Source of the DNA: Inonotus obliquus
Lineage: Eukaryota; Basidiomycota; Agaricomycetes; Hymenochaetales; Hymenochaetaceae
Direction: 5' to 3'
NCBI GenBank assembly: GCA_032164295.1
Contig: JAJHTX010000002.1
Span: forward strand, 3,658,001-3,722,000
Length of the DNA stretch: 64,000 nt
In this document: one piece after another, positions 24,299 through 52,535 of the stretch
Layout: each line of letters opens with the position of its first letter
Numbering within the stretch: position 1 is the first letter of the stretch
The notes under the pieces: generated by a model
Told to the model about the DNA's origin: nothing
The model's input: only the letters and a program-made list of their open reading frames with translations
Databases searched by the model: none
Position numbers and translations under genes: made by a program

Positions 24299-27076
24299 TC
24301 ATCCAAATATCGATGTCAAATCCGAGAGAACAGCTTGTACACCATCATTACCCGTCGGTGCGCTTTGGTAACCATCGTTGGGTGATACACCCGATTGGTT
24401 TTCGTTCGGTGATACAGTACTCTCGTCCTCGTTCTGAGATACCGTCGAACCATCGTTCTGTGACAAGTTGCTTTGTCCCCACTGTTATGTCATGAGAAAA
24501 TAGGGAAGAGGGCATTGGTTAGCATGAGTAGGTCATGAGGTCAAGAATCATGGGAATGAAGATGAGAAGGGAGGGAACAGGCGAGGGTAAATGACAATTG
24601 ATTAATGAATCAGGAATAGGGCATGGATCAAATTCCAGAAAGACAACGAACAAGTACGCACCTGGTATTGCATTGCCCCACCCAGTTGCGAGCTGAGCGC
24701 AGCCTGGAGCCACTGACTATACGCATCTGCGAGTTGGTCGTTTGTTACACCAACTCCCGCGGTCCCTGAGGCATCACTCGAAGTTTGCCTCTTCACATTA
24801 GTGGAGGATGCAGTAATGTTCCCGGTAGTGGTCGCGTTGAATGGTGCATTCGTCGAGTTGAAGGGAACGAAGAACGGTAGATTGTCTTGCGAAACCAGAC
24901 CAAACGCCGTAAGCACAGCAGGCTTTCCTACCCTATTTCATAGAACCACAGAACCGAAAGTCAGCGAATGTCCCGAACCGACGAGCAAATTTCGGCAAAA
25001 CGAAGGTGGAGAAGCAAACGTGAGAGAAAGCCAGAAATAAGATTGATCCCAGCGGCTCTAGGGCACCATGGTGCCCTCATCTGCGGTTCTAGAGTATTCG
25101 GGTCGGAATAAATGGATCCCGGAGCGTGAGTACCAACAATCCACAACACGAGGTCGAAGTCACGATGGACTTGATAATCAACCGAAGGGAAGATGGTGGC
25201 GGTAAAAGGGGAAGAGAAAAGGCACAAATAGGCAGGCCAATGGATCGCCGAAGCGAGAAAATAGAGCATTGTGCTTACTGTTGTGCGAGAGCGGCTTGTA
25301 TCTTAATCCATTGGATGCCTTCCTCGACGGTATTGTTAAACGCCGGGAGGTTGGGGTCCGAACCCGCGACGGCATAGCTATTCTGGTCGGGGAACAGTTG
25401 GCTGTTATGGACATAGTAGTCCCGCCGGAATAGAAATCCGGACCGAAACAATTAGTAGCCCAAGTGGTGCATCAGGTTTTCGCAATATCATGCGTAGATC
25501 GCACACACAGACGGCAGAGAGTTTGACGAAACGATGCGCAAAGGCGATGCCGAAGGGTGGAAGGAAGCACAACCATGCGGTGTCAATAGAAGATCAAGGT
25601 CACTCATCAGCTGCGGGTGCTATAATGTGAATAGAGGAAGAAAACGGTGTACGAACAAGGAGCCGAATCCAATAGTAGGGATGTTCAGTATATCTTGTGA
25701 ATCAACACCTGATGACCCGTCGAACGCGGGGCCTACATCTGGACCTACAGGCGGATCGGACTGCCCTGCGGGTTATTCAACCCCGGGGATGAAACGAAGT
25801 GAGCATACGGCATTCATTTAATGGAAAGAAAGATTGCAAGAAGGGTAATGGAACTTACGAGCAGCAATCCATCGACCCCGAATGCGAAGGCCATCTCCAC
25901 GCTCAAGCAACTCGCGCTTCTTTACCTCCCGCGTTCTCTTGCGCCTCTCCTTGACCTCATTCAGAAGGAGCTCGTTCGTGATTGGCTTAGCGTTGCGCTT
26001 CCGGCGACCGGGGGTGGCAGAGACGGTCGGCGGAGGTGCCAAGGGGAAGAGCTTCGTGCAATCATTGCATGGGAATCCGTGGGCTCCAGTCGATACAAGG
26101 TGGTTCGGATCAACGCTTGCAACGTGTTGGCCAACGTCCGCATGCCATGCCGTGATCGTCGTGGTGTTGCACACATTACTTTGCTCGATGGAACTCGCAC
26201 AGCGCGGGTCATTTGCAAGCTCCCATGCAAGAATGGCAGGACTGTCGATATAGCGCGAGACGACTTGAGTAGTGTAATTCTTGAAAATATCGACAATCGT
26301 CCCATTGAGGTAAAATGTATCATGTTGCCTCTTATGCCCGAACTCCCGCACATAAGCATCCATTCCGCCTGTGAAATGAATTAGGGACAAATTTAGTTAG
26401 TCGGATTTCTATGATGCTTGATGTTTTCCGGCGAGGACGGGATAAGCACAAAGATAAACATACCGAAGTCATTCGACAAGAAGTTCCTCGGCAAAGAGTT
26501 GTTTGTGCCTAGTGTAACGTCTCTTCGTCCAAGAGATCCATCTACTGGGACGGCTGTAGTATTATCAAGCAACGGACGAGGGTTCCAGTTATTCGTAAGC
26601 GAGAGGATGAGCAATATCCCAGCTTCCTCTGCAGCTTTGACGACAAAGTCTAGTTTCTGCAAGCCATTCGGACCCGTGTTGACGATTGTCTGGCCGTCTT
26701 TGATGACCTGGAACCAAGTGCCATTCACAGGAATTTCATCGACGTCATTGAAGGCCCATGTCCGGACGACTTTAATTCCAGCTGCAGCGATGTTGTGAAT
26801 TGTGGTGTTGATGTCCTCTTGTGCGTTCAAAGAGGGCAACCAGTACGCATTGGTGCCCACGAACGTGAAGAGCCTGCCCAATTGTGAGATAAACAAGAGG
26901 ATCAAGACGACAAGAATACACAATGCTCACTCTCCATTCCTGATGAACTGACCGTTCTGAATCTTGACAAATTTATCGTTGTTCCGCCTCGACTTGTAAG
27001 TCGGAGTGGGCGTCAAGGCGGACGCGCCTGCGAGGAGGGCCAAGAGGGCATAAGACCAGAGTGAAATAGAACGCAT
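24299..27076 (-). CDS. GH5_7 endo-beta-mannanase homologue with altered active site
   Basis: Fungal GH5_7 enzymes cut beta-1,4-mannan; this copy looks non-catalytic. Exons on the minus strand: 27076-26931, 26873-26464, 26368-25859, 25765-25657, 25401-25279, 24932-24662 and 24481-24299, giving 583 residues. A signal peptide (first 20 residues, ending GASA) is followed by mannanase landmarks: FTFVGTNAYWLPSL, VVRTWAFND, AILAWELAN, VDPNHLVSTG, FDGSSGVD, IPTIGFGSF and MQYQWGQ. At the acid/base position the usual WELANEPRC reads WELANDPRC (Asp239). At the nucleophile position the usual EE(Y/F)G reads TAFG (Ala442). The HLY pair of the barrel reads QLF (Gln393, Phe395). Residues about 307-356 are a basic insertion with several dibasic sites. 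One intron (25278-24933) is 346 nt, far above the local norm. The open frame with correct splicing argues against simple decay. It is probably secreted. Confidence 0.85.
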
Positions 27077-45563: not shown

Positions 45564-48500
45564 CTAGAAAAGCCCAACAACGCGTCCAGTCTCAGGGTCC
45601 AATCCAACTTCCCAAAACCCTGCAAAAGAAAAAAAGATCAGAGAATGAGTCTTAGAGGGAGGCGAAAGAGAACAGTCGAATGTCTGAAGGCTCACCTGGA
45701 CGAGTACCAAGACCAGGCATAGTCTGAATATCTCCTAGTAATGGATAGAGGAAACCCGCTCCTGCTGCGAGGCGGACGGAGCGAATGGGGATTGTGAAGC
45801 CTTTGCATGCGATAAGTTTGGTAGAAGGCGATCAGTTTCTGGGCCATGACGGAGCGGAGGTACGGAGAAGTTGGAGAACTAACCTGTTGGCACGTTCTTG
45901 AGCTTCGGGTCGTGTGAAAACGAGTATTGCGTTTTTGCCATACAGACTACACAAGGCATGTTAGCTCGCGGACTAGCAAAGTAAAAGAAGAAAGAAAAAC
46001 ACTTACTTGGCAACCCTGCATACCCCTGCTTCGTATACCTCTCAACCTGTTCCCTTGCAACCTCACTAAACTCAACTCCATCGGCTCCATAAATCTCTTT
46101 AGAGATAACCTCGATCTTCTCTTCGATGCTCTTATCCAGATCATACAAAAATCTGAAATTCGAATTCGAATTTGAGGGGGATGAGGGGTGTTGTTGACCT
46201 TCGCAAACGGATACTACTGCTTGAGCGAGGTCGAGAGCACCTGATCCTCCACAGGCCCAGTGGTCCGAGACGACAGCTGCATCTGCTCCTGCTGAAAGCG
46301 CTTCTTGACGGATGAGTTCTAGTTCTGCGGGCGTGTCGGATCTGAAAATAGATTTAAAAAGACAATAATCAGCTTCACGGTTCGTTTGGCGAAAAGGGAG
46401 GTAGGGGAGGTTGACGTGCCGATGAAAGAGACACTAACGAAAACTTATTAACCCCTACAACAACCTTCACACCGAACTTCTTCGCATTCTCGACATGCTT
46501 CTTCAGATTCTTACACCCTTCCTTCAGAATTTCCAGATTCTCCGTAGTATATGTCTCATGGAGAGGTTTACCAGGAGTAACCTCAGGTCCACCTCCATGC
46601 ATCTTCAAAGCTCGAGTGGTGGCTACAATAACGGTAGCATCGGGCGTTAAACCACTAACTCGGCATTTGATATTACAGAATTTCTCCATGCCCATGTCGG
46701 CACCAAATCCACCTTCGGTGAGAACGTAGCCGGTTTGTGAAGAGAGGTCACCATCGTCTGTCCCTGCGAGCTTGAGAGCGATGCGGTCTGCGAGGATGGA
46801 GGAGTTTCCGTGTGCGATGTTAGCAAAAGGTCCGGCATGTACAAATACGGGTGTTCCCTGAGGGAGGACAAATGCATTAGAATAAGAACGTAATAAAAGA
46901 TAATGAAGAACACAAACCTCAAGAGTCTGCATAAGGTTCGGCTTAATTGCATCCTTCATCAGTACCGCCAATGCACCGCCAACACCAATATCATCAGCCG
47001 TGACCGGTTCCCCACTCTTACTCATCGCAACGACCATCTTACCTAGCCTTTCCCTCATATCATGTAGTCCTGTCGTCAACGCCAAAACAGCCATACATTC
47101 ACTCGCAACAGCGATATCAAATCCTGTCTCTCGCTCGTGCCCTTGTTCAGTCGGATTACGACCGATGGTGATTTTGCGGAGGAACCGGTCATTGGTGTCG
47201 ATGACGCGATTCCAGGTTATGGTTTGTGGGTCGATGTCAAGACGAGCAAAACGGGTGATCTCTTCGGGTGTAAGATCGCTTGGATCGGTTTTGTTGATGC
47301 CGAGTTTTTGGAGGCGTTTGAACATAAGTGGTGCGAATTCGCGTTTACCTTTGACAGTCGGGACGAGGCGGTTGTAGAGAGCCTGGAGTTGCGAAATCAA
47401 TACATGTTTTACTTGGTATGCTATTCGCCTACTTCACCTTGTCAGATTGGGTGGCCTCATGGAACATGCGAGCATCCAGTGCGGCTGCAAGCAAGTTATT
47501 CGCAGCAGTTACAGCATGGATGTCTCCCGTAAGGTGGAGGTTGAACTGAATAACCGAATCAGTCATGAACTCTTTTTCACTGATTAGAATTGACCTACCT
47601 CGTCCATAGGAATTACCTGACTATATCCACCACCAGCCGCGCCTCCCTTGATCCCGAACGTCGGCCCCTGGCTCGGTTGTCGCACGCACGCAAACGTCGG
47701 TCTTCCCAAATGCGCTCCAATAGCCTGCGCCAATCCAATCGTCGTCGTCGACTTCCCCTCTCCCAAAGGCGTAGGTGTAATTCCCGAAATCACCACATAC
47801 TTCCCATCTTTCCTATAGTTCAGCCTCTCCAATACTTTCAAGTCAATCTTGGCCTTGTACTTCCCATAACTCTCTACTTCGTCTGCGTGTAGACCGAGTT
47901 CGTGTGCGAGAGTTGTGATGGCTTTGGGAGTTTGGGACATGGCGATTTCGATATCGCTTGGGACTTTAGGCAGGACGTTTAAAGAGAGGGGTTTGATGCG
48001 ACGGGAGCGTGCTGCATTGAAGAGACGCTCAGCGGAAGTGAGTGTGTTGAACATGAGCATTGCAACTGTCATTGGGCCAACTCCGCCTGGTACGGGCGTG
48101 ATGTGCGAGGCAACAATTGAGGCAGAGGCAAAGTGCACGTCGCCGACGAGCCGTTGGCCCGATTTCTTCGAGGCATCTACAGGTAGTTGGAAAATAAGCG
48201 AACGCTAAGAAGGATGATTCTGGAGTCAGACAGACCTGGGATGTAGTTAATCCCGACGTCGATAACGACACAGCCAGGCTTAAGCCATTCACCCTTTACG
48301 TACTCTGCCTGACCGATAGCGGCTATTACGATGTCCGCGGTTTTCAGCTGAAGGTATCCGATTAATCTCCATAGACCGCTCGACGATACACTCGGATTCA
48401 CTCACTATCTCGGGCAAGTTCCTCGTCTTACTATGACACTGGGTGACAGTTGCGTCCCGCTTGCGGAGCATGGCTGTGACAGGGTTCCCGACGATATCGC

Positions 48501-49143: not shown

Positions 49144-49600
49144 GGTGCGAACGAGAAAACGGAAAGCAGGAAGGAAAGAGGGAGACGTGGTTGAAGTTGT
49201 AGGAGAGATCAGATAAATACGATGTACTCGTGCTAGGCGCATGGATTATTTCAATAGAATAATTGAATGTTTTCGGATCCTCTGCTGAGTGGTGGGAATC
49301 AGAGGCATTTTTCAAACAATTCCAACAACGAAATGACTCGAGTACCGCAGACCATCGGCAGATGAAGCAGTCCTTTCTCATGCAATATACCACAGAAAAT
49401 TAACAGCAAATAACGGCAGATGATTGGATTACAAATGCACTTGGTTATATAAGCAGCGAGAATGCCGTAATCGCGTCACTGGAAATCAAAAATTTGGGAG
49501 ACAACTCATCCTCTCCTTCACCACTTGCTACACTACTCTCTATCACCTCGCTTTCTACTCTTTTCACATTCTCTTTTGTCTGCTCGCTTGATATCCCATA
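49144..49600. promoter_or_regulatory. Divergent promoter, C1-THF synthase and MGE1
   Basis: 457 bp between opposed starts. A TATATAAG box lies at 49446-49453, about 150 bp before the MGE1 ATG. CT-rich sequence (49506-49580) follows, typical of a fungal leader. A clear heat-shock element (three inverted GAA units) was looked for and not found. Confidence 0.5.
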
Positions 49601-50587
49601 ATGAGTCGAGCAGCGACGCTTTCTCTTTTACGCCAATGTGCTTCTGGTATCTCATCGCCAGCGCGGCACGCCGTTCCGACTCGGACAGCGCGGGTGGATA
49701 CGCTCCGTACGGGATTAAGACCATATTCGACTCATAACGGCCAGACGGAGCAGAGTGGTCAGGAAGGGAAGAAAGGGGAGGAGAAGCGGGAAAATGGTAA
49801 CAGAAGTACCGGAGAGAAACGAGAACCGGAGAGTGGTGAAGTGAAAGAGTCTACTGCGAGCAACGATGCTCATGCGGAGTGCTTGAAAAAGCTCAAGGCC
49901 AAAGAGGATGAGGCCGTTGACCTCACCGTGCGTGTTCCATTCCTTTCAATACAGAGAGGCCTTTTTCCAACCTTACTCATATCCTTTCTCATTACACAGA
50001 GTCGATTACGCTACCTCCAAGCCGACTTCCTCAACCTCCAACGCAATGCTGCTCGGGAGAAAGAACAAACAAAAGACTTTGCCATTACGCGTTTTGCTGG
50101 TGACCTTTTAGAAACCGTTGACGTACTTTCAATGGCTCTTAAATCTGTTCCGGAGAGCGCTTTAAAACCGCCTTCAGAAGGGGACGCGAGTGACGTATCC
50201 GGGAATGTACCAGACGCTGCTTCCCAATCCGCTTCTTCATCCACGTCCGTGCCCTCCGACTCAGCATCACCATCTTCATCTACTACCTCGGATTCGACAC
50301 AACAAACCAAAAACCCGTCCGAATACCTCCGCGAACTCCACCATGGCGTCGAAATGACCCACCGCCTGCTCCTCCAAACCCTCTTCAAATACGGCGTCAA
50401 GCCCTTCGACCCCACAGGTGACATGTTTGATCCAAATAAACACGAAGCTCTTTATCAGGCGCCGATTCCTGGGAAGAAACCTGGGATGGTGATTGATTGT
50501 CAGAAGACAGGGTTCACGATCAAGGAGAGGACTTTGAGGGCTGCACAGGTGGGGGTTGCATCCGAGCCACCAAATAACTCGTCGTAG
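49601..50587 (+). CDS. MGE1: Mitochondrial GrpE-type nucleotide exchange factor
   Basis: It releases ADP from mitochondrial Hsp70 to drive import and folding in the matrix. Exons 49601-49927 and 50000-50587 give 304 residues. The first 45 residues are Arg/Ser/Ala-rich without acids (matrix presequence), then comes a charged linker. The GrpE core begins at LTSRLRYLQADFLNLQRNAAREKEQ, the long dimer helix, and continues with RFAGDLLETVDVLSMAL, HHGVEMTHRLLLQTLFKYGVKPFDP and the beta-domain HEALYQAPIP...IKERTLRAAQVGV. A Ser/Pro-rich insertion of about 60 residues splits the helical part. The 72-nt intron is a multiple of three and has no stop, so an unspliced mRNA would insert 24 hydrophobic residues into the long helix. 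Splicing is favoured because it restores the family sequence. Confidence 0.93.
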   Translation: MSRAATLSLLRQCASGISSPARHAVPTRTARVDTLRTGLRPYSTHNGQTEQSGQEGKKGEEKRENGNRSTGEKREPESGEVKESTASNDAHAECLKKLKAKEDEAVDLTVRVPFLSIQRGLFPTLLISFLITQSRLRYLQADFLNLQRNAAREKEQTKDFAITRFAGDLLETVDVLSMALKSVPESALKPPSEGDASDVSGNVPDAASQSASSSTSVPSDSASPSSSTTSDSTQQTKNPSEYLRELHHGVEMTHRLLLQTLFKYGVKPFDPTGDMFDPNKHEALYQAPIPGKKPGMVIDCQKTGFTIKERTLRAAQVGVASEPPNNSS

Positions 50588-50799: not shown

Positions 50800-52345
50800 T
50801 TAACGAATCTCTACTCCTAGTTGATTTATTGCGAGATCTTTGATGACGTTAGTGAGGTCATTGACTTCGGTGCCTGCGAGGCTCCTGTGTTTGTGATTAT
50901 AAGAAAAGACAAGAGCGAGACGGAAGGAGGAGAGAGTTACCTTTCCATCGACCTGAACATTATTCGGAAGCACATACTCTCTCTGAGAGTTTTCGGATGT
51001 TTGAACTGGTCAATCTAAACGATAATGAAAAGGAAAGGAAAAGAGTCAATCGTCAAAAGACATAGCTCCACATTCAATCATGCGAATTCACCAGAGTGAC
51101 CTGCTCCACTAAGTCCCCTGCAACAACTCTCACAATATCACAGAAATCATTCGAATGCATCCTCGGCCGCTCGTGAGGGAGTGGGAGCCAAAAGCTCACA
51201 TCTCTACACGAACCCGGATACCTGGAGAATGGTTTGTACGTTGTGATTTCGCCTTGCTTGAATTGATCTATGAAGCGAGAATCTGAGGACCAGAAGAGAC
51301 GGATGTCGGGGATTTGGTAGAGTATCATGGCGATACGTTCGAGGCCGAGGCCAAAGGCCCAACCAATTTCGTTTTCAACCTCTGCTTGCATAATCTCCTA
51401 TAAGTAATTGGAACTTTGGGATTGATGCGAAATGTGAAACTTACTGGCGTTGGTGAGCGTCGCTTGTTGAATAACTCCGCATCCCAAGATTTCAAGCCAT
51501 TTATCCCGAAAGAGGACTTCGACTTCGTAACTTGGCGACGTAAACGGGAAAAAAGCGGGTATCCAACGAATTTGCAGCGGATTCGCCTTCGACGCGCCTG
51601 CTACACCAGCAAACAGTTTAAATAGCATTAGCGAAAGCGTGTACTTTAGATTTTGGGTGACGAGGTCCGCGAGTTCTGGGTCGTGGCATTTCTGGTACGG
51701 GTTTTCCTCGTCGATTTGAGTTTTATCTTCCAAGTGAAGGTTCTCGGCGGATAGTTCTGATCGTAGACGTTCATTCTCCTCTGCTAAAGGAGCAGCGGTT
51801 TCGGAGTGACTATGCCTCCACAATCGAGCACCTTCGACTTGATGAAAGATAGGATAATGACTCGCGTCAATCTCGTCTCGTCGATACACATCCGCGGTTA
51901 ACAGCCAATTCTTATACCCTGACTTGAAGATCTCCACTTCATGCGCACTCGTATGCGTACGTAACATTATCCCTCTATTAACATAATAACTATCCGTCAC
52001 TGACCTCCCTGGGTGGTCCTCTGCAAACGATAAGTCGTCAAAGTTTTGTTGTGGGGTGACAAGAGGCGGGAAAGAGCTGAAATGCGCGTAGGTGGGGAAG
52101 TGAGCTTCGATGAGAGATTTTAGGGTTGTTAATGGATGAGAGGGTTTGTCGATTAGACGTGCGTTAAGACGGGAGAGGATGGTAGGTGTGATATTCGTGT
52201 AGTCGTCAGTTGGATAGTGTTTACCGAGGACTTCGATTGTTGACAGTTTTGTTGACATGCATCTTTGGTATCGTCGACATGGTGTTGAGCAGAGCCATAT
52301 CGTGAAGCTGCGCGACAAAGAGCGTGTTGAGAGTGTTTTGAGCAT
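50800..52345 (-). CDS. MSF1: Mitochondrial phenylalanyl-tRNA synthetase
   Basis: This is a monomeric class II synthetase charging mitochondrial tRNA-Phe. Exons on the minus strand: 52345-51445, 51384-51092, 51014-50941 and 50884-50800, giving 450 residues. The N-terminus ([14 protein letters not shown]...) is a matrix presequence. A second in-frame ATG at 52258 could give a version lacking most of it. Motif 2 is [20 protein letters not shown], and motif 3 is [13 protein letters not shown] followed by [16 protein letters not shown]. The C-terminal anticodon-binding domain (FDX-ACB) is complete: [30 protein letters not shown] and [15 protein letters not shown]. The second exon's acceptor (ATGCAAG|CAG) is set by frame; the nearer TATAG does not keep phase. 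It is divergent from the next gene, with 190 bp between starts. Confidence 0.93.
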
Positions 52346-52535
52346 GGTGCTCAATGAAATCAACTCTCAGACGCGAAAATCTGGAACGGAAGTAGCCGTT
52401 GACCGTGACCGTGACTCTTTCCAACGCGCACCGTCACACTATAAACATTATTCTGGTCACGCTATTGAGTCTTTCTTTCACTCAATACTCACTACTCGTC
52501 CTCACTGACTCCTATTTCAACAAAGAACATGCAAA
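52346..52535. promoter_or_regulatory. Divergent promoter, mitochondrial PheRS and the basic nuclear protein
   Basis: 190 bp between opposed starts. It contains a GACCGTGACCGTGACT direct repeat (52400-52415) and CT-rich sequence before the plus-strand ATG. Both promoters must be within it. Confidence 0.4.

Follow-up and report, generated by a model that had tools for sequence, protein, structure and literature searches.

A probable conserved pseudo-glycosidase related to GH5_7 mannanases in Inonotus obliquus, very likely a member of subfamily GH5_30

We describe a gene of the fungus Inonotus obliquus that carries the landmarks of an endo-beta-1,4-mannanase of subfamily GH5_7, but lacks both catalytic glutamates. 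It lies in a stretch of 64,000 nucleotides (assembly GCA_032164295.1, contig JAJHTX010000002.1, positions 3,658,001-3,722,000 of the forward strand), which is referred to as the window. From sequence comparisons, we suggest that its product is a conserved secreted pseudo-glycosidase, belonging to an old mushroom clade related to GH5_7 and binding glycan in a lectin-like or scaffolding role; we assign this reading a probability of about 0.6. The loss of catalytic residues is not a new event in this gene, but a trait inherited within a very probably known, uncharacterised non-catalytic subfamily.

Results

The active-site motifs of the window protein read WELANDPRC (D239), FQLFPDQ (Q393, F395) and VLTAFG (A442). 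An active GH5_7 enzyme has Glu as acid/base (NEP) and again as nucleophile (EE[FY]G), plus a His and a Tyr in the active site; none of these four is present. The initial annotation of this DNA had named the four substitutions Asp239, Gln393, Phe395 and Ala442, and they are right to the residue in the spliced protein.

A protein search with the window protein as query gave 446 matches at E-values up to 1e-3, of which the best 120 were used. A second search, with an Amylostereum member (P0107) as query, contributed 32 new sequences from the best 120 of its 323 matches. These 152 relatives and the window protein form a family set of 153, which was set by the match lists and not by the residues in question. 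The canonical set (n=126) consists of the best 120 of 1545 matches to a mannanase from the same genome, two paralogues from that genome and four solved structures. At the acid/base column, Asp is found in 153/153 family members, as opposed to Glu in 126/126 canonical sequences. The nucleophile column holds Gly (117), Ala (29) or Ser (7) in the family and never Glu, while the canonical set has Glu in 125 and Gly in one. The His column contains Gln in 137, Thr in 8, Met in 7 and His in a single family member (canonical His 126/126), and the Tyr column Phe in 147, Leu in 3, Thr in 2 and Ile in 1 (canonical Tyr 125, one gap). The same or similar residues recur in all 120 relatives taken from the first search and in each of the 32 added by the second, which puts the four changes far beyond chance. 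A change private to this gene was rejected, since all 152 relatives listed carry the same kind of replacements. The preference of the initial annotation for a selected pseudo-enzyme over decay is supported by Asp at the acid/base position and the missing nucleophile Glu in 153/153. The changes are, however, not specific to this gene or its branch but inherited within an old clade.

A few sequences deserve separate mention. The gene model of P0075 runs through additional sequence around WELAN that is probably intron; for this reason P0075 was excluded from one alignment (119/120 rows), but it was kept in residue and conservation counts. Also kept in the counts were two odd canonical rows, namely P0147, with Gly in the nucleophile column, and P0232, with a gap in the Tyr column. 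P0147, from Sistotremastrum niveocremeum, is of the canonical type and retains the acid/base Glu, with VVLEGFG at the nucleophile; this might reflect an error in the sequence or an isolated loss independent of the clade. P0267 from Tricholoma furcatifolium (898 amino acids) appears as a pseudo-mannanase fused to PF00107 and PF08240, probably through a merged gene model.

All named organisms among the family matches listed are fungi as far as recognised, 44 of the 152 being jgi- or lgn-only entries without organism name. The genera presumably represent several orders of Agaricomycetes. Among the matches listed, no genus that we take to belong to Polyporales was recognised by name in the family, in contrast to several in the canonical set. 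Many of the listed family matches are called mannan endo-1,4-beta-mannosidase in their public source names. The 36.07-Mb genome of I. obliquus itself harbors at least three further matching GH5 loci, and catalytic residues are retained in 3/3 of them. Two have NEPRC, the His-Tyr motif and EEFG. The third, more divergent locus (L011) reads WELVNEARC, HIYP and LEEFG, as judged by eye from DNA (motif at 1570-1620); these motifs differ from those of the other two mannanases.

A phylogeny was inferred with FastTree from 369 trimmed columns and rooted on the Rhizomucor mannanase 4qp0, with no plant or bacterial outgroup. All 153 pseudo-enzymes form a single clade with support 1.0 and a stem of 0.73, apart from the 126 canonical sequences. 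With support of only 0.354 at the neighbouring node, the tree does not fix how the clade, 4qp0 and the remaining canonical sequences branched from one another.

The pocket is probably still under selection, since Asn238, Asp239 and Tyr401 are each found in 153/153 sequences, Arg86 in 148/153 (4 Lys, 1 gap) and Tyr522 in 148/153 (2 Trp, 3 gaps), and Arg241 and NNW are conserved at 0.99 or more. Mean conservation of 17 pocket positions is 0.905, compared with 0.718 over 336 core columns. The difference between pocket and other core columns (Mann-Whitney p 3e-4) is indicative only, because the positions were chosen by hand, on the basis of the alignment and of known Man5A residues, and include general landmarks.

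Relative to GH5_7 mannanases, the clade has three large inserts. One of them, which spans residues 285-371, comprises a CxxC motif, a Pro-rich and dibasic stretch, a basic helix and RGRW. Its residues C286, C289, R349 and W352 are kept in 153/153 sequences, and its net charge ranges from +7 to +17 across the clade. This basic CxxC insert is absent from the 126 canonical sequences. The predicted model of P0001, an 82%-identical relative used in place of the window protein itself, has the fold of fungal GH5_7 mannanases.

The spliced coding sequence of 1752 nucleotides is open and encodes 583 amino acids in seven exons (Table 1). The six introns (57, 95, 93, 255, 346 and 180 nucleotides, 1026 in total) all have GT-AG borders, and the intact seven-exon frame claimed earlier stands. 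The splice model is credible because of 82% identity, at 100% query coverage, to a protein of Sanghuangporus vaninii, the closest match among the best 120 of 446. WELANDPRC lies entirely within exon 3 and LTAFG entirely within exon 6. The three minus-strand frames between 24000 and 27500 contain neither NEP nor H.YP, in a scan that did not enumerate motifs created by other splice junctions; its three matches were EFG at another site of exon 3 (26345), LNECR within intron 3 (25821) and EYG downstream of the stop codon (24117). With EFG and EYG only misplaced and no NEP or H.YP in these frames, no splicing was seen that would restore the active site. In a Pfam scan, the window protein matched Cellulase PF00150 (E-value 3.1e-13), and no further domain, including CBM1, was found. 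The N-terminus carries a signal-like hydrophobic stretch at about residues 1-21 (judged by eye), and the model of P0001 has a helix at 3-16, in a region of low confidence. The encoded protein is thus probably secreted.

Among the best 120 of 446 matches, 35 come from jgi or lgn contigs only, and 8 of these 35 contigs have less than 200 nucleotides outside the coding sequence. As this is too little for introns like those of the window gene, the eight are probably spliced transcripts. According to the available part of PMC8511702, a GH5_30 gene of Phlebopus portentosus is significantly lower in primordium compared to mycelium. The clade includes a Phlebopus sequence (P0052), which may differ from that gene.

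To describe the neighbourhood, 10 of the 13 open stretches that reach 230 amino acids or more were scanned, unspliced, against Pfam. Three passed the curated cut-off (FTHFS, GrpE, tRNA-synt_2d), three matched only below it and the remaining four matched nothing; none of these ten unspliced stretches gave a glycan-related family. The three matched neighbours, 19 to 28 kb from the gene, are housekeeping genes with no evident glycan link.

Table 1. Coordinates of the pseudo-mannanase gene, its parts and matched neighbours in the window
Feature	Position	Strand	Basis
Whole gene, start to stop codon; pseudo-mannanase, probable GH5_30	24299..27076	-	Splice model, homologues, Pfam
Exon 1, with signal-like N-terminal hydrophobic stretch	26931..27076	-	Splice model
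Exon 2	26464..26873	-	Splice model
Exon 3, with the WELANDPRC motif and the larger part of the basic insert	25859..26368	-	Splice model
Exon 4	25657..25765	-	Splice model
Exon 5	25279..25401	-	Splice model
Exon 6	24662..24932	-	Splice model
Exon 7, polar C-terminal tail and stop codon	24299..24481	-	Splice model
Asp239 codon, acid/base Glu replaced	26208..26210	-	D 153/153 family; E 126/126 canonical
Gln393 codon, active-site His replaced	25398..25400	-	Splice model and family counts
Phe395 codon, active-site Tyr replaced	25392..25394	-	Splice model and family counts
Ala442 codon, nucleophile Glu replaced	24905..24907	-	Family G117, A29, S7; canonical E 125/126
Clade-specific insert, residues 285-371, split by intron 3 (25766-25858)	25717..26072	-	Alignment
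Formate-tetrahydrofolate ligase match	46378-47433		Pfam
GrpE match	49592-50584		Pfam
Class II tRNA synthetase core match	51401-52366		Pfam

Discussion

The clade closely resembles a subfamily that already has a name. GH5_30 was named in 2012 by Aspeborg et al. (PMC3526467) as a fungal-only group, then of five sequences; the available part of that paper describes it as the only GH5 subfamily whose sequences all lack essential residues. There, several GH5_30 members are stated to be annotated as mannanases, and the subfamily sits in a block of uncharacterised ones between mannan-acting subfamilies including GH5_7. Our clade is alike in two of these respects: both catalytic Glu are missing in 153/153, and many listed members are publicly annotated as mannanase. 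No difference was found in a comparison that relied on this published description and not on member lists or motifs. The window gene and its clade are therefore very probably GH5_30. The basic insert is not described in the available part of that account (PMC3526467). Our literature search, mostly outside subscription journals, found the clade treated only in PMC3526467, and a GH5_30 gene mentioned in PMC8511702, both as far as their available parts go; other papers may touch on it.

The barrel fold (P0001 model) and the landmarks NNW, WELAN.PRC and KP are shared with GH5_7 endo-beta-1,4-mannanases such as those of T. reesei (1qno), Podospora (3ziz) and Agaricus bisporus (Q9P893). However, the window protein has kept neither of the catalytic Glu nor the active-site His and Tyr, three large inserts are present, no CBM1 is detected by Pfam, and the clade matches the separately named GH5_30 in its available description. 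Another GH5 module without catalytic acid/base is the carbohydrate biosensor Rsi24C-GH5 of Clostridium thermocellum (PMC3526467, available part). Unlike the window protein, in which Pfam finds a GH5 domain only, Rsi24C-GH5 comes from a bacterium and is coupled to an intracellular anti-sigma factor.

With the nucleophile and both helper residues lost, the GH5 retaining reaction is implausible, and we presume that the window protein does not perform such hydrolysis. Instead, its conserved cleft (Arg86, Asn143-Asn144-Trp145, Asn238, Arg241 and two Tyr where active enzymes have Trp) would bind glycan without cutting it; conservation of the pocket is most simply explained by glycan binding. The basic insert might touch an anionic partner, or be cut by a Kex2-type protease during secretion. 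The most likely role would be that of a lectin-like or scaffolding protein in the fungal wall or extracellular matrix. A more specific proposal, which we put forward tentatively and hold to be rather doubtful, is that the secreted protein combines the invariant Asp of a rebuilt pocket with a proteolytically processed basic CxxC insert to serve a new function related to the wall, be it the specific binding of a glycan or a chemistry other than GH5 retaining.

Several points weigh against the glycan-binding pseudo-glycosidase. Conservation does not extend to the whole cleft, because the canonical acidic pair of GDEG (positions 281-282) is lost and variable and positions 441-442 vary as well. Mean core identity is 63.6% in the clade and 71.0% in active paralogues, and the clade is the more conserved one in 13.5% of 325 pairs; the comparison covers 26 sets, one from the I. 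obliquus genome and 25 from species with one listed sequence per kind, with orthology of the active copy assumed. On these numbers the clade evolves moderately faster than the active paralogues, yet it is clearly constrained. The literature examined holds no binding or activity data on the clade. Finally, strict conservation of Asp239 could signal unrecognised chemistry.

This last point leads to an enzyme with a rebuilt mechanism, in which Asp239 would take over an acid or base function, and the small residue in place of the nucleophile (Gly, Ala or Ser) would make room for a substrate group or water, in a transferase, inverting or substrate-assisted reaction. The invariance of Asn238, Asp239 and Tyr401 would fit, as would replacement of the nucleophile by Gly, Ala or Ser exclusively; these are the small residues of engineered glycosynthases. 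In a set of 121 sequences, other carboxylates are near-invariant in the clade, for example Asp380, a position usually taken by Ala in canonical enzymes, though these carboxylates may lie outside the pocket. We nevertheless consider such an enzyme improbable, with the active-site His and Tyr lost too, no activity reported in the literature examined, and an activated donor being required by any natural glycosynthase. Alternatively, the protein could be a non-enzymatic partner or decoy that blocks mannanases or their inhibitors or gives protection from them, or in which the insert alone acts and the barrel is a scaffold. The insert speaks for this, as its positive charge, dibasic sites, CxxC, Arg and Trp distinguish the clade from the 126 canonical sequences, and inactivated GH18 chitinases turned xylanase inhibitors offer a precedent (PMC3526467, available part). 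Under such a role the pocket would be expected to drift; the chosen positions are on average above core conservation, except 281, 282, 441 and 442, and we find this explanation unlikely. A decaying pseudogene or gene-model artefact, suggested by the absence of both catalytic Glu, has a negligible probability and was rejected: the 583-codon frame with six GT-AG introns is open, its 82% identity to Sanghuangporus vaninii extends over the full length, all 152 relatives listed share the kind of replacements, and the minus-strand frames hold no restoring motif.

Conclusions

The family genera include, as we presume from their names, both wood-decay and ectomycorrhizal fungi. Maintenance of a dead enzyme across both lifestyles suggests that it serves the fungus itself rather than digestion. 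Counts of mannan degraders in mushroom genomes are inflated wherever these proteins, called mannanases in databases, are included. The conserved residues identified here present direct targets for mutants that address the role of the clade.
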